Below are positions 14,477 through 53,355 of a stretch of DNA of 64,000 bases, one piece after another. Position 1 is the first letter of the stretch. Every line of letters starts with the position of its first letter. Below the pieces are notes generated by a model. It made no database searches. It worked only from the letters and a program-made list of their open reading frames with translations, and was not told the origin of the DNA. Where the stretch lies: NCBI RefSeq assembly GCF_023502425.1, contig NZ_JAMFMA010000002.1, forward strand, positions 1-64,000, written 5' to 3'. The position numbers and the translations under genes are program-made. The stretch comes from Flagellimonas spongiicola. GTDB lineage: Bacteria > Bacteroidota > Bacteroidia > Flavobacteriales > Flavobacteriaceae.

Positions 14477-15022
14477 TCAGAACATTAACACTGAGGCATT
14501 TTCGCGGATGATTCTAAGTGCCTTGGACATTTGATTTTCCACGGTTTTTATGGAAATTCCCATATCTTCCGCTATTTCGCGGTATTTGCGTCGTTCTAAC
14601 TTATTCATGATAAATATTTCCTTGCATTTTGGAGGAAGTTTTTCAATCAACTCCTCTAATTTGTCGAACACGGATTTCATAGTGGAATCCTCTTCTTTTT
14701 GCTCAAAATAGCTATCATAAATAGTTTCCCAGCGTACCTTATCCAATAGATCAGCCCTATTTTTCTCCTTTCTTATGTGCATAAGGAATTGATTATGGCA
14801 AGCCTTAAACAAGTAAGACTTTAATGAACCCTTGATGTTCAAGTTTTTACGCTTTTCCCATAGTTTTAAAATAACCTCCTGCACAATGTCCTTGGATAGG
14901 CTGCGATTACCACTTAATTGAAAGATGTAATTACAAAGCCAATCATAGTACTCGTCAAACAAATACTCATAGGCGGAAACATCGCCGGACCTAAGTTTCG
15001 ATAAGAGTAATTGTTCATCCAT
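14477..15022 (-). CDS. ECF RNA polymerase sigma factor
   Basis: 181 residues from the ATG at 15022 (an upstream in-frame ATG at 15121 would add 33 residues overlapping fecR and is rejected). Sigma region 2 (about 20-85) includes YEYLFDEYYDWL and DIVQEVILKLWEKR; region 4 (about 120-175) includes LPPKCKEIFIMNKLE and YREIAEDMGISIKTVENQMSKAL. It belongs to the Bacteroidota group that pairs with FecR anti-sigma factors. The partner fecR is divergent, 75 nt away, rather than downstream as usual. It should recruit polymerase to the fecR-receptor operon. Confidence 0.93.
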   Translation of the reverse strand: MDEQLLLSKLRSGDVSAYEYLFDEYYDWLCNYIFQLSGNRSLSKDIVQEVILKLWEKRKNLNIKGSLKSYLFKACHNQFLMHIRKEKNRADLLDKVRWETIYDSYFEQKEEDSTMKSVFDKLEELIEKLPPKCKEIFIMNKLERRKYREIAEDMGISIKTVENQMSKALRIIRENASVLMF

Positions 15023-15064
15023 TTTCAAGAAAATATGGACTAAAGTAAAAAATTTATAAAAAAC

Positions 15065-15097
15065 GTAGGGGTTTTTTGTCAATTCAGCATCTTTAAG
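15065..15097 (+). promoter_or_regulatory. Possible ECF-type promoter of the fecR-receptor operon
   Basis: The 75-bp divergent region contains GTAGGGGTTTTTTGTC (from 15065) and then CATCTTTAAG just before the fecR ATG. It lacks a TAnnTTTG box. A GTAGGGG-like element is plausible as an ECF -35 element, with CTTTAAG as the -10 partner. This rests on position and lack of a housekeeping box, not on a comparison. Confidence 0.35.
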
Positions 15098-16273
15098 ATG
15101 AAAGACTGCCATTATATGCAAGAATTAATCGAAAAGTACCTGAATAGGACGATTAGCAAAAAAGAGCGAAAACAGCTCAAAAAATGGGTTTTGGCAAATA
15201 ACAACAACCTCAGAACCTTTAGAACAGAAATCAAGAATAGGTCCAAAAACAACCTTTACCATCAATTTGACGGTAAAGATGCGTATGTCACATTCCTGAA
15301 ATCAATCGAAAAAAGAAAGAAACGTAATCCTTTTGTTCAGCATCAATGGAAATATGCAGCAATCTTTATTGGATTGATATCTCTGGGTTTAATAGTGGCC
15401 AAGCCTTGGAATTCTGAACAAAGTTCGCAAATCACTTCCACTGAACACCAAGAAATAAATCAATTAAACCAGGTGGTGATTACCTTGGCCGACGGAACAA
15501 AACAACTATTGTCCAAAGATGACACGGGTACCATCAGCAACAAGAATGGCAAAGTCATCGCAGTTAAAAATGGTAAAGAACTTGATTTTAGCGGCACTTC
15601 TTCAACCCAAGAGGACCAACTTGTATTCAATGAAATTTACGTGCCTTATGGGCAAACCTTTTCGCTTACATTATCTGATGGGACCAAAGTTTGGCTAAAT
15701 GCAGGCACTAGTCTAAAGTTTCCACAACATTTGAATACAGCAACAAAAAACAGAATCGTCTATTTAAGTGGTGAAGCTTTTTTTGATGTAACCAAAGATA
15801 AAAATCGTCCATTCATTGTAAACGCAGAAAATCTGGACATCGAAGTTTTAGGCACCCAGTTCAACGTATCAGCCTATAAATCGGATGGGGCTATTGCAAC
15901 AACACTTGTAGAGGGATCAGTACGCGTATATGAAAATTCCAATCCGGACACTAAAATGAAGTTGACACCAAACTACCAAGCGGCTTTTGCAAAAGAGCAC
16001 GGTACGTTCTCGAAACATTTTGTGGATACAAGAATCTATACAGGATGGATGCAAAACCTGCTGATCATAGACAATTTAAAGTTTGACCATATCCTTAAGA
16101 AATTAGAGCGCTCACACAATGTAACCTTTATCAATAAAAACTTGGATTTGAACAATGAGGCATTTATGGGTGAGTTTGAAAATGAATCGATAACACATAT
16201 TCTAAACACCATTGCCTCTAGTACACCATTTAACTATACAATAGAAAACAATGTCATAACAATATCAAAATAA
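15098..16273 (+). CDS. FecR family anti-sigma factor
   Basis: 391 residues. Cytoplasmic sigma-binding region (1-82) with basic helices, one transmembrane helix (about 84-103), then the periplasmic FecR domain (about 180-285; VPYGQTFSLTLSDGTKVWLN, YLSGEAFFDVTKD, VLGTQFNVSAY) and a C-terminal DUF4974 domain (about 320-390). It should hold the ECF factor inactive until a signal from the TonB receptor's STN domain reaches the FecR domain. A hairpin and 74 nt separate it from the receptor gene. Confidence 0.95.
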   Translation: MKDCHYMQELIEKYLNRTISKKERKQLKKWVLANNNNLRTFRTEIKNRSKNNLYHQFDGKDAYVTFLKSIEKRKKRNPFVQHQWKYAAIFIGLISLGLIVAKPWNSEQSSQITSTEHQEINQLNQVVITLADGTKQLLSKDDTGTISNKNGKVIAVKNGKELDFSGTSSTQEDQLVFNEIYVPYGQTFSLTLSDGTKVWLNAGTSLKFPQHLNTATKNRIVYLSGEAFFDVTKDKNRPFIVNAENLDIEVLGTQFNVSAYKSDGAIATTLVEGSVRVYENSNPDTKMKLTPNYQAAFAKEHGTFSKHFVDTRIYTGWMQNLLIIDNLKFDHILKKLERSHNVTFINKNLDLNNEAFMGEFENESITHILNTIASSTPFNYTIENNVITISK

Positions 16274-16276
16274 AAA

Positions 16277-16298
16277 GGAAGGTGTTGCAGCACCTTCC
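16277..16298 (+). other. Intercistronic hairpin between fecR and the TonB receptor
   Basis: GGAAGGTG (16277-16284), loop TTGCAG, CACCTTCC (16291-16298), without a T run. This is a likely attenuator or RNA-processing/stability structure. The segment ACCTTCCCAATA (16292-16303) recurs at 19641-19652 in the terminator after the receptor. Confidence 0.55.
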
Positions 16299-16347
16299 CA
16301 ATATTAGATCGCTAACTCAGATTATTAACAATCAAACATTCAAAATT

Positions 16348-19300
16348 ATGAAAAAAAGCATGGTTATCAAGTCATCCAGAATTTGGATGGTTAACCAAAA
16401 AATGACGCTAAAGATGAAATTAAGTGTAATACTCAGTTTCTTCATGATTTGCCAACTCACTGCGAATGACATCTATTCGCAGAAGAAAATGCGTTTTCAA
16501 TTTGAAAACACTCCGTTAAAAGAAATCCTCAAGGAAATAAAAAGCCAATCCGGATATCGGTTTTTTTACAACGTAAACGAAATCAACGACGATAAAAAGA
16601 CTTCACTTATTGCAGACAATGAAAATGTTTTTCCTGTTTTAAATCGATTGAGCTCAAACGAAGGATTGACCTATACCATCAATGGTAATCAAATCGTCCT
16701 TAAAAAAGTACAGCTAGGAACGATTGATGATCTAAAGGTTGACCAATATGAACTCACAGGTACAGTTAAGGACAGTCAAGGTGGTCCGCTCCCAGGTGCC
16801 AATATTCTAGTAAAAGGAACCACAAATGGAACCCAAGCTGATTTTGATGGAAATTTTACACTGGAATTAGAAGACAACAATGCTATTTTGGTGGTCTCCT
16901 ATCTTGGCTTCAAGACCAAGGAAATTGCATTAAACGGACAATCAAATATTGATATTGTCTTAGATGAAGATGCCGCCCAACTCGAGGATGTGGTTGTGGT
17001 AGGTTCAAGAAATCCAAATAGAACCGCAACCGAAACCACCGTACCCGTTGATGTAATTGATGTTGCTACAATTGCAAATCAAGGACCTCAAGTAAGTGTC
17101 AATCAAATCTTAAATTATGTAGCGCCATCATTTACCTCGCAAAGCCAAACCGTTTCGGATGGAACAGATCACATTGATCCCGCTTCTTTGCGTGGTTTGG
17201 GCCCGGATCAAGTGTTGGTATTGATTAACGGAAAACGTAGACACACTACTGCTTTGATCAATGTGAATGGTACCGTAGGTGCAGGTAGCGTGGGTACGGA
17301 TATGAACGCTATACCAGCAGCCGCAATTCAGCGCATTGAAGTACTGAGAGATGGTGCCGCTGCACAATATGGTTCAGATGCCATTGCCGGTGTAATCAAC
17401 ATTGTACTGAAAAAGTCAACTGGTAAGTTGGATTTATCCTTGACCACTGGTGCAAATTTCAGTGAGAACAGCAACCAATTTGAAGGCGGAAGTGACGGAG
17501 AAAAGTTCCAATTAGACGCAAATTATGGATTACCAATTGGCGATGGCGGATACATCAATTTTACGGGTTCATTGTCTACACGGGAACCTGCATTACGCAA
17601 CAAGGACTATGCAGGGGATATTTTCCAAGGATTTCATGGAGCTGAAAGAGTCTTTGCCAATGGCGGAGGCACAGTAGCTGATATGACCTTGCAGGATTAT
17701 GCCAATGCCGCACAAGGCATAGGTTATCTTGACCAAAGTGTCAAAGATCAAATTGCTGGTCTAGACCTATCCAATGACGATGATATAGGAACCTTTCGTG
17801 ATTTATTGGGATTTGATGCAGATGAAGACGAATTGGCCGCTCGCGGTTTAACTAGAAAAGATTTTAGATTTAAAGTAGGTACATCACGATTAAGAGAAGG
17901 AAAGTTCTTCGCCAATATGTCAATTCCTGTTTCCGACAATACCGAAATTTATGGTTTTGGTGGTATCAGTTACCGACAAGGTCTGGCATCCGGGTTCTAC
18001 AGAAGACCCGCTCAAGGTGATGGACGGGCCAATACCCCTGCATTTCCCAATGGATTTTTACCTAATATAGGCACGGACATCCTTGATCAATCCCTTGCAA
18101 TCGGTATTCGAGGTAAGGTTAACGAATGGGATGTGGATTTCTCCAATACCTATGGAAAAAATTCATTTGATATCACAGTAGGAAACTCAAGTAATGGAAC
18201 CTTGGGTGTAGCCACCCCGCGAACTTTCGATGCTGGAGGATTAGGATTCAGTCAAAATACCACCAACTTGGACTTTAATCGGTTTTACGATGATGTATTT
18301 GAAGGTTTCAACGCTGCGTTTGGAGCAGAATACAAAGTGGAAAAGTATGAAATTATCGCTGGAGAGGAATCTTCCTATACCAGTTATGACATCAATGGTA
18401 ATCCTGTGAATAGTGTAACCCCTAATGATCAATTGGTACGAAACAACTTCACAGGTGCAGCTTTAGGTGGTGGCGCACAAGTTTTCAGGGGATATGACCC
18501 AGGAAATGCCACAGAAAAGTTTAGGAACAATATATCCCTTTATGCCGATTTTGAAGCAGACTTTACAGCGAATTGGCTGTTAAGCCTTGCCGGTAGATAC
18601 GAGAATTACTCCGACTTTGGAAGTACATTCAATTACAAGCTGGCAACCCGCATCAAACTTTCAGATAACCTCGCATTAAGAGGAGCAAGTAGTTCTGGTT
18701 TTAGGGCACCTTCTTTACACCAACAGTTTTTTAGTAGAACCAGCACTGTATTTGTAGATAATGTTCCTTTTGAACAAGGTACTTTTACTAACGACAGTAG
18801 AGCCGCCGCCTTGATTGGTATCGATAAACTAAAAGAAGAAACCTCAAATAGTTTTAGCGCTGGTTTTACGGGAACATTTGGTGATTTCACGATCACGGTA
18901 GATGGCTACTTGATCAACATTGATGATCGAATTGTATACTCCGGTAGTTTTGGTGATGGGGATGACCCAGAGTTAGAGGCTATTTTTGAAGCTGCAGGAG
19001 CCACAAGTGCGCGTTTCTTTGTTAATGCCATCGATACCAAATCCTCCGGGGTTGATATCGTACTGTCACATAAAACCAATTTAGGTGATGCCATACTTAA
19101 AAACGATTTCGCAGCCACCTTCAATAAAACCGAGGTTGAAGACATTTTCGTACCCGAATTGATTGAGAATGCGGGGTTGAGCGGTGCATTTTTTGACGGT
19201 CAGGAAGAAGCATTCCTAACCTTGGCACAGCCCCGGACAAAATTGAACCTTACCAATTTGGTGTCTTATAATTCATGGGATTTCTTGTTGAGAAATGTAT

Positions 19301-19593
19301 TCTTTGGAGAAGTTACTGACCCCGATGATTTTAATGGAGACGCAAGAGTTGAAGGAACAACCATAAGTGATGACGCTATATATGGAGGTAAGCTGGTTAC
19401 CGATTTAACCGTTACCAAGACATTTTCGGAAAATCTGGCATTAACCGTTGGTGCGAACAATCTATTTGACGTTTACCCTGATGAAAACAGAGCTGGCGGT
19501 ACTTCCGGAGATCAATTTGTGTATTCCAGAAGAACCTCTCAATTTGGTTACAGTGGTAGATACCTATTTGCCCGACTACGATTTAGCTTATAG
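16348..19593 (+). CDS. STN-domain TonB-dependent receptor
   Basis: 1081 residues from the ATG at 16348 (frame open from 16282). A long N-terminus and signal peptide (about 1-47) precede an STN/secretin-like signalling domain (about 50-120; LKEILKEIKSQSGYRFFYN), a carboxypeptidase-D-like regulatory domain (about 130-210; GTVKDSQGGPLPGANILVKGT), a plug (about 215-335; LEDVVVVGSRN, LRGLGPDQVLVLINGKRRH) and a C-terminal barrel ending RLRFSL. The STN domain and the upstream FecR fit a cell-surface signalling receptor. No SusD gene follows, so it is not a typical glycan system; the ligand could be a siderophore or other organic molecule. Confidence 0.93.
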   Translation: MKKSMVIKSSRIWMVNQKMTLKMKLSVILSFFMICQLTANDIYSQKKMRFQFENTPLKEILKEIKSQSGYRFFYNVNEINDDKKTSLIADNENVFPVLNRLSSNEGLTYTINGNQIVLKKVQLGTIDDLKVDQYELTGTVKDSQGGPLPGANILVKGTTNGTQADFDGNFTLELEDNNAILVVSYLGFKTKEIALNGQSNIDIVLDEDAAQLEDVVVVGSRNPNRTATETTVPVDVIDVATIANQGPQVSVNQILNYVAPSFTSQSQTVSDGTDHIDPASLRGLGPDQVLVLINGKRRHTTALINVNGTVGAGSVGTDMNAIPAAAIQRIEVLRDGAAAQYGSDAIAGVINIVLKKSTGKLDLSLTTGANFSENSNQFEGGSDGEKFQLDANYGLPIGDGGYINFTGSLSTREPALRNKDYAGDIFQGFHGAERVFANGGGTVADMTLQDYANAAQGIGYLDQSVKDQIAGLDLSNDDDIGTFRDLLGFDADEDELAARGLTRKDFRFKVGTSRLREGKFFANMSIPVSDNTEIYGFGGISYRQGLASGFYRRPAQGDGRANTPAFPNGFLPNIGTDILDQSLAIGIRGKVNEWDVDFSNTYGKNSFDITVGNSSNGTLGVATPRTFDAGGLGFSQNTTNLDFNRFYDDVFEGFNAAFGAEYKVEKYEIIAGEESSYTSYDINGNPVNSVTPNDQLVRNNFTGAALGGGAQVFRGYDPGNATEKFRNNISLYADFEADFTANWLLSLAGRYENYSDFGSTFNYKLATRIKLSDNLALRGASSSGFRAPSLHQQFFSRTSTVFVDNVPFEQGTFTNDSRAAALIGIDKLKEETSNSFSAGFTGTFGDFTITVDGYLINIDDRIVYSGSFGDGDDPELEAIFEAAGATSARFFVNAIDTKSSGVDIVLSHKTNLGDAILKNDFAATFNKTEVEDIFVPELIENAGLSGAFFDGQEEAFLTLAQPRTKLNLTNLVSYNSWDFLLRNVFFGEVTDPDDFNGDARVEGTTISDDAIYGGKLVTDLTVTKTFSENLALTVGANNLFDVYPDENRAGGTSGDQFVYSRRTSQFGYSGRYLFARLRFSL

Positions 19594-19715: not shown

Positions 19716-21146
19716 ATGGAAAAATCCAAAATCATAGGCCTTATTCTTGGCCCAATTGTATTCCTTTTATTGACCTATCTTCCCATGGAATTAATTTCTG
19801 AAAAAGGTGACCCCGTAATAGCCGTTGCTGTTTGGATGTTGATTTGGTGGATCACGGAAGCCGTATCCATTTCCGTAACCGCCTTGCTCCCATTATTGCT
19901 TTTTCCAATTCTAAAGGTATTGCCCATTGGAGAGGTTGGTGCGAACTATGGCAGTCCAATTGTCTTTTTGTTTTTTGGAGGTTTTGTTATGGCGTTGGCC
20001 TTGGAAAAAGTCAACCTACATAAACGGATTGCATTGAATATTATTAAGTTGACTGGAACCACACCCAACAAAGTGGTTTTGGGGTTCATGATTGCTACTG
20101 GATCATTGAGTATGTGGATTAGCAATACGGCAAGTACTGTGGTCATGTTACCCATTGCGTTATCAGTAATCAACCTATTGATCAATGATGAAGATGGTTT
20201 TACAAAGAATGATCGAAATTTTGCCTTGAGCGTAATGTTGGGTATTGCTTTTTCCGCCAACGCGGGAGGGATTGCTACCGTAATTGGAACGCCACCTAAT
20301 TCCGTTTTAATTGGACTTTTGGAAAATGAGTACAATACGGAAATCTCCTTTTTGAAATGGATGACATTAGGATTGCCATTTTCGATTGTTATGGTCGGGA
20401 TTTGTTATTTGGTATTGGTTAAATGGATGTACCCCAACCGAGATCTACAGTTCAATGCATCCAAAGAAGTAATTCATAAAGAACTTGAAAAATTGGGTCC
20501 GACATCGGGCAAGGAAAAATTGGTGTTGGCCATTTTCGCCGTAACGGTTTTCCTATGGATTTTCCGAACACTAATCAACAGTATCTTTCCATCGCTTGGA
20601 TTGTCGGATACCATGATCAGTATTTTTGCTGCTATAGCATTGTTTTCAGTTCCTTATAACTTAAAAAAAGGGGATTTTATCATCCAATGGAAAGATACCT
20701 CAAAACTTGCGTGGGGTATCTTGATTCTGTTTGGTGGTGGTTTGGCCTTGGCCAAAGGAATGTCATCTAGCGGTATTGTCGATATTGTTGCCAATGCCAT
20801 AGCCAGCAGTGATATTAGCATCTTGCTCACAGCATCCTTATTGATTGCCCTAATGCTGTTTATGACAGAATTAATGAGTAATGTGGCTTTGGTAGCCGTA
20901 TTGGCTCCTGTAGTGGCGGGTATTGCCATAGGTCTGGATATCCCAATCCTGTATTTATTGATACCTGTGACCATTGCCAGTAGCTGTGCATTTATGTTAC
21001 CGATGGCTACACCTCCAAATGCAATTGTTTTTGCCAGTGGCTATGTCAAAGTGCCACAAATGGCACGGGTAGGGGTCATATTAAACCTTATCGCAGTTGG
21101 ATTGTTGATTTTGGTCTTTCAGTTTGTGATTCCATTATTATTCTAG
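19716..21146 (+). CDS. SLC13/DASS family sodium:carboxylate symporter
   Basis: 476 residues with about 11 hydrophobic segments. The two family signatures are present: SNTASTVVMLP in the first half and NVALVAVLAPV with ATPPNAIVFASG in the second; GTPPN also occurs in the middle (IGTPPNSVLIGL), as expected for the two-fold repeat that forms the sodium and carboxylate sites. It probably imports di- or tricarboxylates such as succinate, malate or citrate across the inner membrane. It stands alone and is convergent with a repeat-protein gene. Confidence 0.93.
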   Translation: MEKSKIIGLILGPIVFLLLTYLPMELISEKGDPVIAVAVWMLIWWITEAVSISVTALLPLLLFPILKVLPIGEVGANYGSPIVFLFFGGFVMALALEKVNLHKRIALNIIKLTGTTPNKVVLGFMIATGSLSMWISNTASTVVMLPIALSVINLLINDEDGFTKNDRNFALSVMLGIAFSANAGGIATVIGTPPNSVLIGLLENEYNTEISFLKWMTLGLPFSIVMVGICYLVLVKWMYPNRDLQFNASKEVIHKELEKLGPTSGKEKLVLAIFAVTVFLWIFRTLINSIFPSLGLSDTMISIFAAIALFSVPYNLKKGDFIIQWKDTSKLAWGILILFGGGLALAKGMSSSGIVDIVANAIASSDISILLTASLLIALMLFMTELMSNVALVAVLAPVVAGIAIGLDIPILYLLIPVTIASSCAFMLPMATPPNAIVFASGYVKVPQMARVGVILNLIAVGLLILVFQFVIPLLF

Positions 21147-21147
21147 T

Positions 21148-21174
21148 AAAAAAAGCCCCTCTTTTAGAGGGGCT
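21148..21174 (-). terminator. Terminator of the short repeat-protein gene
   Basis: On the minus strand AGCCCCTCT, loop AAA, AGAGGGGCT is followed by a T run (complement of 21148-21153). On the plus strand there is no T run after the stem, so it mainly serves the minus-strand gene, though it also lies just after the transporter stop. Confidence 0.82.
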
Positions 21175-21217: not shown

Positions 21218-21520
21218 TTATTGTATATACGGATCAAAACCAATTGGTAGATATCCGGATGTATCAAAATCTAACTCCAAGTCATCATTTTCATCAATAT
21301 AATTGATGGCATCCAAGAAAAATTCACCATTATAAGGGTCAAAATTCTCAGGAAGATATGGAGCGGTATCAAAACCTAGTCCGTGTTCATCTTCTTCAAT
21401 GAATACTAAAGTATCCACATCAAAATAATGAATTGGGGCATTGTTTTTTTTAGGGCTGTTCGCCGCAGCAAAAATGGTTGTTACGGCAATAAGTATTACA
21501 ATCAGATTTCTAATTTTCAT
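21218..21520 (-). CDS. Small secreted acidic tandem-repeat protein
   Basis: 100 residues. Signal peptide about 1-20 (ending FAAAN), then two units of about 34 residues (33-66 and 67-100). Each unit contains the core [LF]-x-F-D-T-x2-Y-L-P-x2-F-D-P-Y preceded by an acidic stretch with [IV]-x-[FY]-I-[ED]-E. The mature protein has no Cys and is strongly acidic. The same unit occurs five times in the gene at 21863-22594, so the two are paralogues; the UTR repeat and terminator layout are also shared. A TATCTTTG box (complement of 21545-21552) lies about 25 nt before the start. Function unknown. Confidence 0.75.
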   Translation of the reverse strand: MKIRNLIVILIAVTTIFAAANSPKKNNAPIHYFDVDTLVFIEEDEHGLGFDTAPYLPENFDPYNGEFFLDAINYIDENDDLELDFDTSGYLPIGFDPYIQ

Positions 21521-21790
21521 AACCGTCGTTTTTCAATTTTAAGACAAAGATATAACCACATATTGTGAAGATTATTACAATTAGATTTTCGTTAACGTTA
21601 GGGTAAAATCGACCGAAAAATGGAGTTGGTAACGCTTCGAATCCGCCATTGAAAACCTGTTGATCAAAGCATCTATATTTTGTCAGATTGATAGTGTTAA
21701 AGTGTTTATTTTAACAAAAACACTTCATCGAATTCTATGTTATTTTTTTGTTAACTAGCAGGAAATGAGTTGTATTAGCTCCATAAATCG

Positions 21791-21811
21791 AAAAACCCCC
21801 TAAAAGGGGGT
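21791..21811 (-). terminator. Terminator of the long repeat-protein gene
   Basis: On the minus strand ACCCCCT, loop TTT, AGGGGGT is followed by TTTTT (complement of 21791-21795). It lies about 50 nt after the stop at 21863 and is placed like the terminator of the paralogous gene. Confidence 0.8.
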
Positions 21812-21819
21812 CTTTCTTG

Positions 21820-21836
21820 ACTAACTAACTCAAAAA
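21820..21836 (-). repeat. 3' UTR repeat copy 2 (GAGTTAGTTAG)
   Basis: Identical over 17 nt to 21183-21199 and in the same position relative to stop codon and terminator. The conservation of this non-coding segment suggests either that the whole gene unit was duplicated or that the 3' UTR has a function. Confidence 0.6.
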
Positions 21837-21862
21837 TTTGTAAAATGAAAATTACATCCTAC

Positions 21863-22594
21863 CTAATCAACCCTGGTATAGGGGTTAAAGTTTTTTGGAA
21901 GGTAGATTGAGGTATCAAAACCCAAATCCAAATCTTCTTCTTCCATATAATTGATGGAAGCTACTTCCAATACTTCGGTGTATGGATCGAAACCTTCAGG
22001 TAAAGTATACTCAAAATCGTCACCCAATTCCCACTCAGTTTCAGTCTCTATATATGATATGGAGTTTAAATCCATATATGCTTCGTAAGCCGAAAAATCA
22101 GCTGGAAGGTAATCTTCCGTGTTGAAACCAAGATCTAAATCCTCTTCTTCCAAATAATTGATGGCATGAACATCAACTACATCTGAATAGGCATCAAAGC
22201 CTTCAGGTAAATAGCGATTGGTGTCAAAATCCAATTGCAGTTCATTTTCTTCAATATATATAAGGGAATTCAAATCAAAATAGGTCTCGTAAGGATTAAA
22301 ATCGGATGGAAGGTAATCCGAGGTATTAAAACCTAGGTCCATATCCATGTCCTCTTCCAAGAACTCTATATCACTTAAATTTAACTCATAGGACCCTTCA
22401 TTCCATAAATTATAAAATCTAAAGGTCTCATCTTCAAAACCATTACTTACGTGTAATAGCTTAACACTGTTCTCAAACGTGCCTACCTGTTCGGTATGAT
22501 TTTCTACAACAGCTGCAGCGGCACTTTGTTGCTCTTTTGCTACGGCGGTACTACTTAAGAGGACGCATCCGTAAATCATTAATAATTTGTTCAT
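21863..22594 (-). CDS. Secreted acidic protein with five 34-residue repeats
   Basis: 243 residues. Signal peptide about 1-19, a variable region (20-69), then five units at about 70-106, 107-140, 141-174, 175-209 and 210-243. The core is DLGF[DN]T-x2-YLP-x2-F[DN]-x-Y with acidic and hydrophobic flanks (INYLEEEDLDL). Units 1 and 3 continue as Y-E-x-Y-[FM]-DLNS; units 2 and 4 as Y-x-[DE]-V-x-[DE]-V-x2-INY, so there is a two-unit, about 68-residue higher period. No Cys, no enzyme motif. Such regular acidic repeats could bind cations or form a surface filament or solenoid, but this is inference. Divergent from the metalloprotease. Confidence 0.78.
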   Translation of the reverse strand: MNKLLMIYGCVLLSSTAVAKEQQSAAAAVVENHTEQVGTFENSVKLLHVSNGFEDETFRFYNLWNEGSYELNLSDIEFLEEDMDMDLGFNTSDYLPSDFNPYETYFDLNSLIYIEENELQLDFDTNRYLPEGFDAYSDVVDVHAINYLEEEDLDLGFNTEDYLPADFSAYEAYMDLNSISYIETETEWELGDDFEYTLPEGFDPYTEVLEVASINYMEEEDLDLGFDTSIYLPKNFNPYTRVD

Positions 22595-22861: not shown

Positions 22862-25360
22862 ATGTTTCAAAAAGTACTTCCCAAAATCCTATTGGTATTC
22901 CTATTAATAGGTTCAATTCATCATTCAGACGCGCAACTTTTCAAAAAGAAAAAGGCAGACACGGCCAAAAAGGAAAGCGAAAAACCTAAAAAGGACGCCA
23001 TAAAACCTTATGACAAGGTTATTACCAAAGATGCAGAAACCGACCCTGGTCTTTTTGCCGTACATAAGGTTGATGACAAACAGTATTACGAAATTCCAGA
23101 TTCCTTGTTCAATAGGGAAATGCTCATGGTGAGCAGAATATCCAAAACTGCGACCGGAATTGGTTTTGGTGGCGGAAAAATCAACACCCAAGTGCTTCGA
23201 TGGGAGAAAAAACCTAAAAAAGTATTGCTTAGGGTTGTTTCCTATGGCAATGTTGCGGCAGATTCACTGCCGATTCATGAGGCGGTGGTCAATTCCAACT
23301 TTGAGCCAGTTCTTTATGCTTTCGATATCAAAGCTTTCAACAAAAAAGACTCGCTGAATCCCGCAACTGTTATTGAGGTGGATGGGTTGTTCACAAAAGA
23401 TGTGAAGGCATTAGGAATGCCAGAACGTTACCGTACACAGTATAGGATAAGTAGATTGGCAGCCGATCGCAGTTATATCGAATCCTTAAAAAGTTACCCC
23501 CTAAATGTAGAGGCAAGACACGTAAAAACCTATATCGCAAGTGCTGCGCCAAGTAACCAAAGTTTAGGTTCCATCTCGGTAGAAATCAGCAATTCCATGA
23601 TACTATTACCTGAAGAACCTATGAAACGACGCTATTTTGATGAACGTGTTGGATGGTTTGCCCGTGGGCAGGTAGATTACGGATTAGATGCTCAAGAAAG
23701 TAGGACTGTACGCTATTTGGACAGATGGCGTTTGGAAGTAAAAGATGAGGACATTGAAAAGTTTAAGGCCGGTGAGTTGGTGGAGCCTAAGAAACAAATT
23801 ATTTATTACATTGACCGTGCTACACCAAAAACATGGGTGCCTTTTATAAAACAAGGTATAGAAGATTGGCAAGTTGCCTTTGAAGCCGCAGGTTTTAAAA
23901 ATGCGATTATTGCCAAAGACCCACCTACAGTGGAAGAAGATCCTGAATGGTCTCCAGAGGATGTCAGATATTCAGTAGTGCGGTATTTGGCTTCGCCTAT
24001 CCCCAACGCCAACGGACCACATGTTAGTGATCCTCGAAGTGGTGAAATCCTAGAATCCGATATTAATTGGTACCACAATGTTATGACCCTGCTTCGAAAC
24101 TGGTATTTTGTACAAACTGCAGCAATCAACCCGGATGCTCAGAACGTGGAATTCAAAAAAGAAATCATGGGACGGTTGATTCGTTTTGTTTCTGCACACG
24201 AGGTAGGACATACGCTTGGACTACCGCATAATATGGGAAGTAGTCATGCCTATCCTGTGGATTCCTTGCGATCTGCGGCATTTACAAATAAATATGGTAC
24301 TGCACCTTCAATAATGGACTACGCCCGATTTAATTATGTGGCCCAACCTGGGGATGAAGGCGTTGCAATGATGCCTAACATTGGTGTTTATGACAAATAT
24401 TCCATCAAATGGGGGTATCAACCAATTTTAGATACTTCGGCTGAGGATGAAAAACCTATTTTGAATAGCTGGATAAGGGAACATGAAAATGATCCTATGT
24501 ATCGATTTGGTCACCAACAAATTGGCGATATACATGATCCAAGTTCACAAACTGAGGATTTGGGTGACGACGCAATCAAAGCGAGTCTCTATGGTATTGC
24601 CAACTTAAAGCGGATTGTTCCAAATCTAACCAGTTGGACAACTGAAGAAGGTGGTAATTATGACAACCTCGAAACTTTGTATGGTCAAGTTGTGGCGCAA
24701 TATAGGCGTTACATGGGCCATGTTTCCAACAATATTGGTGGGGTCTATGAATTCCACAAAACCGCTGACCAGGAAGGTGCCGTTTACACACATGTGGACA
24801 AAGCACATCAAAAGAATTGCATGGAATTTATTCAAGAACAATTATTTGCCACGCCAGAATGGTTGATTGATCAAGATATTTTCAACAAGATCCAGTATTC
24901 AGGTAGTGTGGAAAATATCCGCTCAACGCAGGTAAGGTACCTGAACACCATACTTCATTTGGGGAAACTGGCCCGTATTATAGAAAATGAAACTATTAAC
25001 GGAAAGGATGCGTATGGTCTTTTGGAAATGATGCAAGACCTACGACAGGGTATTTGGTCCGAGACACGCAGTGGAAAAGCAATCGACACCTACCGTAGAA
25101 ATCTGCAAAAAGCACATATAGACCGACTGAGCTATTTGATGACAGCCGAAAACTTGGGTAGACTTTCAGATTTTGGAGGTTATCGTAAATCAACCGCTAT
25201 TAATACAGTGCAATCAGATGTACGTTCCGTAGCACGTGCAGAATTGAATAATCTAAAAAGGGACATACGTAACGGTCTTAGCCAGATTTCTGATCGTATG
25301 AGCCGCTACCACTTGCAGGACGCCTTGGAACGAATCGATCAAATCCTAGATCCAAGCTAG
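22862..25360 (+). CDS. Secreted zinc-dependent metalloprotease (DUF5117/DUF5118 group)
   Basis: 832 residues. Signal peptide about 1-24, a Lys-rich linker (29-50), then N-terminal domains (about 50-320) with YEIPDSLFNREMLMVSRI as seen in the DUF5118/DUF5117 proteins, and a metzincin-like catalytic domain with HEVGHTLGLPHN: zinc ligands His446, His450 and His456, catalytic Glu447. SIMDYARFNY follows, giving a Met-turn candidate. The C-terminal 300 residues are helical. Likely exported to the periplasm or surface; natural substrate unknown. Confidence 0.92.
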   Translation: MFQKVLPKILLVFLLIGSIHHSDAQLFKKKKADTAKKESEKPKKDAIKPYDKVITKDAETDPGLFAVHKVDDKQYYEIPDSLFNREMLMVSRISKTATGIGFGGGKINTQVLRWEKKPKKVLLRVVSYGNVAADSLPIHEAVVNSNFEPVLYAFDIKAFNKKDSLNPATVIEVDGLFTKDVKALGMPERYRTQYRISRLAADRSYIESLKSYPLNVEARHVKTYIASAAPSNQSLGSISVEISNSMILLPEEPMKRRYFDERVGWFARGQVDYGLDAQESRTVRYLDRWRLEVKDEDIEKFKAGELVEPKKQIIYYIDRATPKTWVPFIKQGIEDWQVAFEAAGFKNAIIAKDPPTVEEDPEWSPEDVRYSVVRYLASPIPNANGPHVSDPRSGEILESDINWYHNVMTLLRNWYFVQTAAINPDAQNVEFKKEIMGRLIRFVSAHEVGHTLGLPHNMGSSHAYPVDSLRSAAFTNKYGTAPSIMDYARFNYVAQPGDEGVAMMPNIGVYDKYSIKWGYQPILDTSAEDEKPILNSWIREHENDPMYRFGHQQIGDIHDPSSQTEDLGDDAIKASLYGIANLKRIVPNLTSWTTEEGGNYDNLETLYGQVVAQYRRYMGHVSNNIGGVYEFHKTADQEGAVYTHVDKAHQKNCMEFIQEQLFATPEWLIDQDIFNKIQYSGSVENIRSTQVRYLNTILHLGKLARIIENETINGKDAYGLLEMMQDLRQGIWSETRSGKAIDTYRRNLQKAHIDRLSYLMTAENLGRLSDFGGYRKSTAINTVQSDVRSVARAELNNLKRDIRNGLSQISDRMSRYHLQDALERIDQILDPS

Positions 25361-49872: not shown

Positions 49873-51624
49873 ATGAGTTACGAATCCAATCCTATTCTGG
49901 ACAAGCTTCCAGAACATCTTAAGCAATTCATAAAACCTCAGAATTATGAAGAATATACCGCCATTGATCAGGCCGTATGGCGATATGTGATGCGAAAAAA
50001 TGTGGATTACCTAAGTCAAGTTGCCCATAAGTCCTATGTAGATGGATTAAATAAAACTGGTATATCCATTGATGACATTCCCAATATGTATGGGATGAAT
50101 CGAATTTTAAAAGAAATTGGTTGGGCTGCTGTTGCGGTAGATGGGTTTATACCGCCAGCCGCATTCATGGAATTCCAAGCATATAATGTTCTAGTAATTG
50201 CTTCCGACATCCGACAGTTGGAAAACATCGAATATACCCCTGCACCGGATATAATTCATGAAGGTGCCGGACACGCACCCATAATTGCCAATCCCGAGTA
50301 TGCCGAGTACTTAAGAAGATTTGGCGAAATTGGATGTAAGGCCATTTCAAGTGCCAAGGATTATGAGTTGTACGAAGCTGTTCGACATCTTTCAATAATA
50401 AAAGAAGCTGCAGGAACTCCTCAGGAAGAGATTAAAAAGGCCGAAGAGCATATTGAATTTCTTCAAGATAATATGGGAGAACCCAGTGAAATGGCACTGA
50501 TTCGTAACCTACATTGGTGGACTGTTGAATACGGACTTATTGGTGAGGTATCACAACCTAAAATATATGGCGCAGGTCTGCTATCTTCAATTGGAGAAAG
50601 CAAATGGTGCATGACAGATGATGTGGTAAAACTTCCCTACACCATTGAAGCAACACACAAGGCATTTGACATTACCAAACCACAACCGCAATTGTTCGTA
50701 ACACCCAATTTTGCGCACTTGAGCCAGGTATTGGAAGATTTTGCAAATACCATGGCCCTACGCACTGGAGGGCTTTCTGGGGTTCAAAAATTAATCAATT
50801 CCAATGCTTTGGGTACTTTGGAACTCAGTACAGGTCTTCAGATATCTGGAACTTTCAATGAAGTAATTGAACACAATGGCAAGCCCATCTATATCAAAAC
50901 CAACGGGCCCACCGCATTGGCGTTTAGGGAAAAAGAACTTGTTGGACATAGTACTTTGGATCATGCGGAAGGTTTTGGCTCACCCATAGGTAAGCTCAAA
51001 GGCATCAATCTAGCTATTGAAGATATGGGGCCACGTGATTTGAAAGCTTATAAGATTTTCGAAGAGGAAGAAGTTACATTGGAATTTGAGGGCGGTATCA
51101 AAGTTGAGGGAACAATCGTCACCGGAACCAGAAACCTTCAGGGTAAAATCCTGTTAATCACATTTAAAGATTGTAAGGTTACCCATAATGATCAGGTTCT
51201 TTTTCTTCCAGAATGGGGATTATATCATATGGCTGTTGGGCAAAACGTGGATTCGGCATTCAATGGCCCTGCTGACTTGCATAGCTTTGATTTGATTTCC
51301 CATGAATTGACGGAAACCACAATCAAGAAAACTTCAAATGCACGTAGGTTAAAGCTTGAAGGCTATTACCAACGTGTTCGCGATTATAGAGACGGAATCA
51401 ATACCTACATCTCCAGAAGCAAATTATTCGAAGAAATCAAAGAAGAATTCCCAGAAGATTGGTTACTGCCTGTAGAATTATATGAACTGGCCAAAAATGG
51501 ACAACGCGATGCCTTGGCGCAAGAAATCAAAAATCATTTGCAGGAAGTCAAAAAATCAAGGCCCGAAGTGGGACACTTGATTGATGATGGATTAGCATTG
51601 GTTGACGAGGCTTTGGTTCGTTAA
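49873..51624 (+). CDS. Aromatic amino acid hydroxylase (pterin-dependent) with C-terminal extension
   Basis: 583 residues. Pterin-dependent hydroxylase core at about 60-310: the iron ligands are His129 and His134 in IHEGAGHAP and Glu219 in WWTVEYGL. Family members usually have about 40 residues between the second His and Glu; here it is 85, so a helical hairpin of about 45 residues (AEYLRRF...MGEP) is inserted. About 270 more residues follow the core with no known motif. Probable phenylalanine hydroxylase, but tyrosine or tryptophan cannot be excluded. Its stop overlaps the convergent peptidase gene. Confidence 0.88.
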   Translation: MSYESNPILDKLPEHLKQFIKPQNYEEYTAIDQAVWRYVMRKNVDYLSQVAHKSYVDGLNKTGISIDDIPNMYGMNRILKEIGWAAVAVDGFIPPAAFMEFQAYNVLVIASDIRQLENIEYTPAPDIIHEGAGHAPIIANPEYAEYLRRFGEIGCKAISSAKDYELYEAVRHLSIIKEAAGTPQEEIKKAEEHIEFLQDNMGEPSEMALIRNLHWWTVEYGLIGEVSQPKIYGAGLLSSIGESKWCMTDDVVKLPYTIEATHKAFDITKPQPQLFVTPNFAHLSQVLEDFANTMALRTGGLSGVQKLINSNALGTLELSTGLQISGTFNEVIEHNGKPIYIKTNGPTALAFREKELVGHSTLDHAEGFGSPIGKLKGINLAIEDMGPRDLKAYKIFEEEEVTLEFEGGIKVEGTIVTGTRNLQGKILLITFKDCKVTHNDQVLFLPEWGLYHMAVGQNVDSAFNGPADLHSFDLISHELTETTIKKTSNARRLKLEGYYQRVRDYRDGINTYISRSKLFEEIKEEFPEDWLLPVELYELAKNGQRDALAQEIKNHLQEVKKSRPEVGHLIDDGLALVDEALVR

Positions 51625-53303
51625 AACCCAAGCTTTGTCAAGTTTTCATCGGTATTTTGAATTTGCGGTACCGGACCTTTTTTTACTGGTAAAAAACTGA
51701 AGTTCTGAGTACTTCCATTCCTTTCGATACCAATTTCCGCGTTTCGCTCAATATCACCATACCAAATGTTACTGGATATAACTTTGTCTCCATTGCGAAT
51801 ACCTGCCATGTACGCCGTACTGCCCTCAATTACATTGGAAATTACCTTATGCTCTTCATTAAAGGTAAACCCAAGCTCGAACACATCGCTTTGAGGACTA
51901 AAGTCAACTGCCAGTTTATTGAACAAATCTCCCAATGGCAATGGCTCGCCATTTTCAATGTGTTTATTGAAAAACTCCTGGAACTGTTCGCCAAGAATTG
52001 GTTTCATGACAGACAAAAAATAGTCATGATTTAGCTTTTGATCCTTTTCCCTGGCATCTTCAAGGATTTGATGCATTACAACATCAAGGCTTTTTTCACC
52101 ATCAGTCAGGCGACGTATTTCAAGATCTAGATAAAATGCAAAAACAGCCCCTCGGTAATAGGGTAAGTTTGCATAATCCCTACTCGCCCAAAAATTTTCA
52201 TAGTTGATCTCCGAGTTTGGAGCTAAGAACACCGGTGAGTTATAAAGTTTACGTATAATCGAATTCATTTCATTAATGAAATGCGTAGAACCAGCTTCAT
52301 TAATATTGTTCTTAGCAATATTCTTGAAGGCGTAATACTCGGTGAAACCTTCACTAAACCAATATTGCTCCTCTTCGTTTTCATTTTTTATGATACTCCC
52401 TATCCAATTGTGCATTAATTCATGATTGAACAAATGCACCATCTGTTCCACTTCCATAAACTCATTGTTTGAGAAGGAGGTAGCAAAGGAATTGGTTATT
52501 CCCGTACCTTGATAACTACTGCCGTTTGGCGTATAAATGGGCTGCATGGTCACTGTAAAATATTCCTGTGTATGATCATTCCAAAAATCCCGCTGCGCGA
52601 TGATCGTTTCTTTGAGAATGGCTTTCATATCACCTACCGTAAAGGGCACCCATTCTCCTCGGGTTGCGAGATATACCGTATTATCCTTTATAGGGATTGC
52701 ATTAACTTCAAAGTCCCCACCTACAAAAATTGCTTCTAAAAATTCCTGCTTGGGAAGTGTTTTTAGATGTTGTGTTTTTTGTTGTGAACCAAAACTGTTT
52801 TGAATTACGTCCTTAGGCCCCAAACCATTCCAATTAATCACCAGATCTAAGGATTCACCGGCTGATTTGGGTACCATAAATAAATTATGGGAAAATAAAT
52901 GGAAATAGGTAGGTTGAATAATTGGTCGGTAGGTCTTTCTAGATGTGATGGGCTTTTCAAAATCCTGTTGTAAAACATAACGAAAATGAAGCTCCTTTAG
53001 ATTTTCGGGATGGTTCAAAACAATCCAACCGCTATCCTTGTTCACTTCAATTGTTCCGGAAACTTTTTCCAACGCCATTTCCTTGATGGCATTATGTAGT
53101 TCTTCTTGTCCCCATGCACTGTTAGGATATTCCAATATGGTGATGCCATCTTGTGAAGGCATAAATTTCATTTCAACCTTCAGTTGATCAATGGAATCTT
53201 TATGTGTCACGGTGATGTTGTAATCAATTTGGTTGGGATTGGGATTGGAACATGAAACAAGAACTAGTAATACAACAAGAAGAGCACCAATTGATCTATA
53301 CAT
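51621..53303 (-). CDS. M61-like aminopeptidase lipoprotein with PDZ domain
   Basis: 560 residues. Lipoprotein signal ending VLVSC (Cys18). N-terminal beta domain, then a gluzincin catalytic domain: His294-Glu295-x-x-His298 (HELMHNWIG) and Glu318 in WFSEGFTEYYA. A C-terminal PDZ-like domain (about 470-545; VISNVIEGSTAYMAGIRNGDKVIS). This is the M61 layout, a glycyl aminopeptidase-like enzyme of the cell envelope. It shares a 4-nt overlap with the convergent hydroxylase gene. Confidence 0.88.
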   Translation of the reverse strand: MYRSIGALLVVLLVLVSCSNPNPNQIDYNITVTHKDSIDQLKVEMKFMPSQDGITILEYPNSAWGQEELHNAIKEMALEKVSGTIEVNKDSGWIVLNHPENLKELHFRYVLQQDFEKPITSRKTYRPIIQPTYFHLFSHNLFMVPKSAGESLDLVINWNGLGPKDVIQNSFGSQQKTQHLKTLPKQEFLEAIFVGGDFEVNAIPIKDNTVYLATRGEWVPFTVGDMKAILKETIIAQRDFWNDHTQEYFTVTMQPIYTPNGSSYQGTGITNSFATSFSNNEFMEVEQMVHLFNHELMHNWIGSIIKNENEEEQYWFSEGFTEYYAFKNIAKNNINEAGSTHFINEMNSIIRKLYNSPVFLAPNSEINYENFWASRDYANLPYYRGAVFAFYLDLEIRRLTDGEKSLDVVMHQILEDAREKDQKLNHDYFLSVMKPILGEQFQEFFNKHIENGEPLPLGDLFNKLAVDFSPQSDVFELGFTFNEEHKVISNVIEGSTAYMAGIRNGDKVISSNIWYGDIERNAEIGIERNGSTQNFSFLPVKKGPVPQIQNTDENLTKLGF

Positions 53304-53355
53304 GATTCGAATTTATTTTAAGACTGATAAATCCCGTCAATGTTACAAAAACAAA

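Follow-up and report, generated by a model that had tools for sequence, protein, structure and literature searches.

Probably exported acidic repeat proteins of Flavobacteriaceae and their predicted envelope-stress-type promoters

Two neighboring genes on the minus strand of a 64,000-nucleotide stretch of Flagellimonas spongiicola DNA (the whole of which we call the window) encode acidic proteins built from tandem units of about 34 residues. What are these proteins, and under which control are they made? An earlier note on this DNA had described the proteins and overlooked the regulatory sequences around their genes, which appear to hold most of the functional information. The new result reported here is one of regulation: many of the repeat genes are predicted to lie behind envelope-stress-type promoters.

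Two window genes and their repeat family

We recovered both minus-strand open reading frames described in the earlier note, the long gene P0002 and the short gene P0001 (Table 1). Its seven units were also found by a unit profile, five in P0002 (E = 6.7e-69) and two in P0001 (E = 1.7e-28); this profile was trained on 187 units, with the window proteins among the source sequences. When 2000 shuffled versions of P0002 were searched as a control, 14 reached E <= 1, the best at 0.053. Each unit carries the core motif LGF[DN]T-x2-YLP-x2-F[DN]-x-Y, and the LP and F of its YLP-x2-F core are invariant.

Two alternating sub-types had been claimed for the long protein. In the window the alternation is clear, with 58-61% identity among units 1, 3 and 5, 58% between units 2 and 4, and 31-45% for odd-even pairs, but across the genus it is weaker: in 32 five-unit proteins, that of the window among them, identity is 56% for 1/3, 62% for 3/5, 55% for 1/5, 52% for 2/4 and 45-53% for odd-even pairs. 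Because the alternation fades across the genus, an origin of the P0002 units by duplication of a pair is possible and not strongly supported. Purifying selection acts on P0002, with dN/dS of 0.05-0.21 in the 11 pairs computed; together with the wide presence of the family in relatives, this argues that the window genes are real.

The N-termini of both proteins, read by eye only, resemble signal peptides and agree with the export proposed before; both proteins are probably exported. Their acidic character was confirmed by composition. With a cut at residue 20, mature P0002 has 57 D+E against 5 K+R (net charge -52) and mature P0001 has 19 against 2 (net charge -17), with a computed pI of 4.05, and the median charge of 83 repeat relatives is -0.21 per residue. 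Neither mature window protein contains Cys, as the earlier note had stated, but this state is not family-wide, since Cys occurs after residue 22 in 47 of the 83, the window proteins being counted among them.

Searches of the two window proteins gave nothing convincing in Pfam (best E 0.21 and 0.5), NCBIfam (none and 0.046) or PHROGs (0.05 and 0.0094). P0002 had no match among PDB sequences (best E 0.12), and a two-unit profile of 54 rows had no convincing one there (best E 0.19). The 54 two-unit segments, searched singly, gave scattered and weak matches to Pfam (best E 0.0047, in 1 of 54) and NCBIfam (best TIGR00295, 0.00023, in 3 of 54). TPR and other 34-residue repeats have the same unit length; however, the window repeat matched no Pfam repeat family, and its models show no paired helices. 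The literature, searched in titles and abstract starts, held nothing judged relevant to the repeat proteins, and a search with peptide words was likewise empty. The view that no named domain covers these proteins is thus upheld, and the family appears to be new, without an entry in Pfam, NCBIfam or PHROGs.

The unit is common in relatives, so that neither of the refuting conditions set in the earlier note came about. Of 36 genus genomes, its own counted, 35 have P0002, and the only one without a match is 71%-complete; the 23 other genomes in the same search gave one match (E 0.118). Named relatives belong mainly to Flagellimonas, Allomuricauda and Muricauda. Within Flavobacteriaceae, 110 of 397 genomes matched by protein (E <= 0.01) and 108 of 397, from 70 of 237 genera, by profile (1e-5), so that about a quarter of the genomes sampled carry this uncatalogued family. 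All 10 matching genomes in an order sample of 296 were Flavobacteriaceae, as were six of the seven matching genomes in a phylum sample; the seventh (G933, E 9.7e-4) was not upheld on re-examination. The repeat family was found only in Flavobacteriaceae in these family, order and phylum samples, and plasmid and phage records gave no match to the repeat.

For the comparisons below we surveyed 60 usable regions holding 83 repeat genes (window counted, L151 left out). These regions were chosen from match lists and are non-random, so proportions among them are not frequency estimates.

Table 1. Predicted and observed features of the repeat locus, in window coordinates
Feature	Position	Strand	Detail	Basis
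Terminator-like hairpin between P0001 and the convergent DASS transporter gene	21146..21174	.		By eye
3'UTR element TTTTGAGTTAGTTAG after P0001	21184..21198	-		Shared sequence
Short repeat protein P0001	21218..21520	-	100 aa, two units	ORF, unit profile
P0001 unit 2	21227..21322	-	Residues 67-98	Unit profile
P0001 unit 1	21332..21424	-	Residues 33-63	Unit profile
P0001 probable signal peptide	21458..21520	-	About residues 1-21	By eye from sequence
Predicted housekeeping -7 box TATCTTTG of P0001	21545..21552	-		Sequence versus TAnnTTTG consensus
Terminator-like hairpin and T run after P0002	21790..21812	-		By eye
3'UTR element TTTTGAGTTAGTTAG after P0002	21821..21835	-		Shared sequence
Long repeat protein P0002	21863..22594	-	243 aa, five units	ORF, unit profile, dN/dS
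P0002 unit 5	21878..21970	-	Residues 209-239	Unit profile
P0002 unit 4	21980..22075	-	Residues 174-205; most divergent unit of the window	Unit profile
P0002 unit 3	22085..22177	-	Residues 140-170	Unit profile
P0002 unit 2	22187..22279	-	Residues 106-136	Unit profile
P0002 unit 1	22289..22384	-	Residues 71-102	Unit profile
P0002 probable signal peptide	22538..22594	-	Residues 1-19	By eye from sequence
Predicted ECF-sigma promoter of P0002	22631..22658	-	GTAAC (-35), 17 bases, GTCTTA (-10)	Conserved upstream block
Met-zincin neighbor (DUF4953/DUF5117/DUF5118), divergent	22862..25360	+	Association not obligate	Pfam

A predicted ECF-type promoter and its candidate sigma factor

A block upstream of the long gene is common to 32 genus sequences and has the form GTAAC-N17-GTCTTA in the window. 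The shorter GTAAC-N17-GTC was found upstream of all 31 genus orthologs of P0002 tested, and precedes 36 of the 83 repeat genes versus 5 of 909 other ORFs in the same regions. A looser pattern gave 36/83 versus 11/909 (Fisher p = 4e-33, a value that ignores gene kinship). The spacer is 17 bases in 38 of 39 sites of a promoter set that retains two doubtful rows, L113 (inside an ORF) and L149 (249 bases away).

The motif is absent from the other 47 repeat genes, P0001 included. We compared this distribution with that of TAnnTTTG, the consensus of housekeeping promoters as given in the cited part of PMC9723704. This box precedes none of the 36 repeat genes with the ECF motif, 24 of the 47 without it and 116 of the 909 other ORFs, so the two are mutually exclusive among repeat genes. 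A further element, GTTAA, lies 20-21 bases 5' of GTAAC in 31 of the 39 sites, whereas 77 of 873 control windows have GTTAA anywhere in 48 bases. At the P0002 promoter this element is degenerate, and the composite pattern does not match there.

The pattern GTAAC-N16-18-GTCTTATA gave 28 matches in 18 genomes and 20 in a read-backwards control (summed by hand), and the short promoter pattern gave 5 matches and 5 control matches in the own genome. As 28 and 20 barely differ, the evidence lies in the location of the matches: 15 are just 5' of a repeat gene and two precede ECF sigma genes. Three more, in three genomes, precede one membrane-protein gene, which we take to be DUF456. We also noticed a second GTAAC-N17-GTCTTA site in the window (53319-53347, minus strand), 15 bases before 51621-53303, which encodes a 560-aa protein with a lipoprotein-like start.

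Which sigma factor might read these promoters? The own genome has 30 Sigma70_r2 genes, and a scan, in which 4 of the 30 loci yielded no ORF, placed a GTAAC...GTC site upstream of two. One encodes a 169-aa ECF sigma with a 17-base spacer in its own promoter; after it come a 143-aa protein, which has no Pfam match and is anti-sigma-like by gene position, and three DUF4252 proteins (L304:4062-6706, G000:C1; apparently autoregulated). This sigma had one match per genome in all 30 genomes searched, and GTAAC-N17-GTC precedes 25 of the 26 orthologs, of 30, with a start read. P0002 and the sigma gene have promoter sequence and spacing in common; P0001 is without it. In the literature we found no recognized account of the role of this operon. 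A second ECF sigma lies at L190 (G000:C9:90623-90708), where the next gene encodes a 132-aa protein and a 117-aa protein is encoded divergently; the GTAACC...CGTCTTA sites there face each other and have an 18-base spacer.

We infer, with good support from these promoters, that a conserved ECF sigma factor drives transcription of the long repeat gene, and the DUF4252-operon sigma is the likeliest candidate. Assignment to one sigma is not proven, given the 30 Sigma70_r2 genes and the second ECF sigma with its similar site. Elsewhere in the window, a Sigma70_r2 gene (14477-15121, minus strand) is followed by a FecR-like (15098-16273) and a TonB-receptor-like gene (16282-19593), both read by eye.

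Of the 397 family genomes, 187 carry the composite GTTAA-N15/16-GTAAC-N17-GTCT, against 35 matches for the read-backwards control (hand count). A profile match to the repeat is missing from at least 79 of these 187, so the promoter also serves genomes outside the repeat family. Among 50 composite-promoter loci examined (L224-L273, some sharing one site), 18 rows from 17 sites precede what by eye is a single outer-membrane barrel protein, scanned at L260 only (CarboxypepD_reg plus barrel), and 15 loci had no ORF inside the script limit. Two composite sites, in two genomes including the own one, precede signal peptidase I (lepB); one was scanned (L255). A 147-aa protein behind the composite promoter at L224/L259 looked repeat-like by eye but found no support from the unit profile (E = 1).

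As the sigma gene, lepB and the barrel gene share this kind of promoter, P0002 is probably made under envelope stress. Exported and outer-membrane proteins and a signal peptidase would suit an envelope regulon. The repeat genes point to such a cell-envelope sigma regulon in Flavobacteriaceae, with promoter GTAAC-N17-GTCTTA, the DUF4252-operon sigma as candidate factor, and lepB and the barrel gene as candidate co-targets.

For Flavobacterium psychrophilum, ECF promoters (motif SM6, with CGT in the -10 box) have been predicted before secretion genes and an ECF sigma/anti-sigma pair (PMC9723704). The passages on SM6 in that paper name no such repeat protein; GTAAC as the -35 element and the spacer of 17 bases are results of the present analysis, and the likeness to SM6 is drawn from the published description. 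Control by an ECF sigma is also reported for the type IX secretion genes of Porphyromonas gingivalis, where another motif has been suggested (PMC4800418).

Other regulatory elements and the surroundings of repeat genes

Eight of the 60 regions have the repeat gene immediately 5' of a LytS-type histidine kinase and LytTR regulator (Pfam, one protein per family scanned: His_kinase in L115, LytTR in L147). LytTR regulators bind paired direct repeats. In the 170 bases before each of the eight repeat genes, TTC[AG][CG] occurs as a pair at a spacing of exactly 21 bp, as it does for 2 of the 909 other ORFs and 1 of the remaining 75 repeat genes. The 21-bp spacing was picked after inspecting the sequences, and nine other spacings tried in these eight regions gave zero matches. 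A stricter word (two CGTTTC, 19-23 apart) matched in three of the eight. The 21-bp pairs fit predicted sites of the adjacent LytTR regulator, a reading that concerns these relatives and not the window genes. Two unrelated kinds of conserved promoter element, ECF type and LytTR type, thus occur among repeat genes, and we regard the regulatory conclusion, predicted as it is from sequence patterns, as well supported.

In eight of the 60 regions a HlyD gene lies within two genes of the repeat gene, and the second genus copy of the repeat gene sits inside a TolC-HlyD-repeat-ABC-FtsX/MacB operon (names from Pfam matches on L065; a divergent NtrC-type pair was read by eye). This exporter-operon copy was seen at L064, L065 and L134-L142, and at L064 and L065 its C-terminus is a different tail with Cys. 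No sigma-54 site was found 5' of the TolC gene in the eight exporter regions examined.

A shared element also lies downstream of the genes. TTTTGAGTTAGTTAG stands just 5' of both repeat-gene terminators, and the genome holds one more exact copy, a third, at G000:C1:314998 (L191). The looser TTGA[AG]?TTAG is 3' of 25 of the 83 repeat genes versus 10 of the 909 other ORFs; among the 31 genus orthologs of P0002 it follows 29. The TTTTGAGTTAGTTAG element is possibly an RNA element.

Structure models and possible modes of action

Structure prediction gave no global fold, either for the full protein or for three units. Full-length P0002 had a pLDDT of 34 with a one-genus alignment, whose shallowness, rather than disorder, may explain the value. 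The three-unit model, also from a one-genus alignment, had a mean pLDDT of 59.5 and a pTM of 0.22, with pLDDT 70-77 in three ten-residue blocks at the YLP cores. One alignment (A3, 92 rows) was dropped, being spread over 139 columns with its unit 2-4 rows presumably one unit out of register; another (A4) held 64 of 111 segments and omitted 31 unit 2-4 rows, 15 short-protein rows and one L044 row. The models hint that the acidic mature chain may be disordered for the most part and ordered locally at the motifs, an appearance that shallow alignments could mimic.

What the proteins do at the molecular level we infer from these features. With moderate confidence we read them as multivalent acidic proteins of a new family, exported, largely without a fold and governed by envelope-stress regulators. 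Envelope stress would activate the ECF sigma and hence transcription of the long repeat gene, and some other family members would be targets of the adjacent LytS/LytTR pair. Along a largely disordered mature chain, each core motif might fold into a local turn and dock onto some partner in the envelope, and two to six units would then give multivalent binding.

Spy/CpxP-type proteins offer a partial parallel, being likewise small, exported and induced by envelope-stress regulators, and a sub-threshold DUF4890 gene neighbors window-type repeat genes. Spy-type proteins, small periplasmic stress proteins, are helical, however, whereas the repeat proteins are acidic and repetitive. The fibronectin-binding repeats of Gram-positive bacteria are also acidic, disordered and of similar length, and bind one partner many times; they belong to wall-anchored adhesins, and their likeness to the window repeats is by description only.

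The proteins could instead be soluble acidic sponges that bind metal ions or cationic antimicrobial peptides, either in the periplasm or outside the cell, with the repeat as a mere supply of charge. The strong negative charge of the window proteins and their relatives, the second copy inside exporter operons and the stress-type promoters all suit this reading, and cation binding, one of the roles suggested in the earlier note, is possible. Mere charge, however, needs no invariant LP and F, and the conserved hydrophobic and aromatic positions suggest specific binding. As more than charge is conserved, we prefer a docking motif and think the sponge unlikely, in either place of action.

A more specific form of docking seems quite improbable to us, namely that the proteins are a new class of secreted multivalent signals of Flavobacteriaceae, made under stress and sensed or buffered by envelope regulators. 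Each unit would be a docking peptide, the regulators would be the LytS kinases encoded beside some of the proteins and the ECF anti-sigma system for others, and unit number would then set the strength of the response.

The divergent met-zincin protease raises another reading, in which the repeat protein is its substrate, inhibitor or propeptide-like partner. The two genes are divergent neighbors in the genus, the protease lies within two genes of a repeat gene in 21 of the 60 regions, and in L108 and L153 the pair is kept together with the transporter absent. In 29 regions, window included, repeat genes lie within two genes of a DASS transporter, in a chromosomal block whose variable members are lysS (by eye), the met-zincin and the sub-threshold DUF4890 gene; 19 of these regions have the protease within two genes and the other 10 do not. 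One genus locus, L050, retains both repeat genes and lacks the protease, and the kinase and exporter regions have other neighbors. The association is therefore not obligate, the link proposed before is weak, and a partnership with the protease is very improbable.

Least credible is a secreted matrix or surface protein (an adhesin, or the surface filament proposed in the earlier note): tandem repeats and probable export would suit it, but the proteins are small, their promoters are of stress type rather than part of a surface-structure locus, and NCBIfam models of type IX secretion sorting domains gave no match at E <= 1 for the window proteins.

The preferred reading, docking proteins under envelope-stress control, concerns a family whose surroundings vary further. 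Alpha/beta-hydrolase genes lie within two genes of a repeat gene in five regions. Two or three repeat genes per region were seen at L120, L123, L126 and L127, several with an ECF-type promoter of their own.
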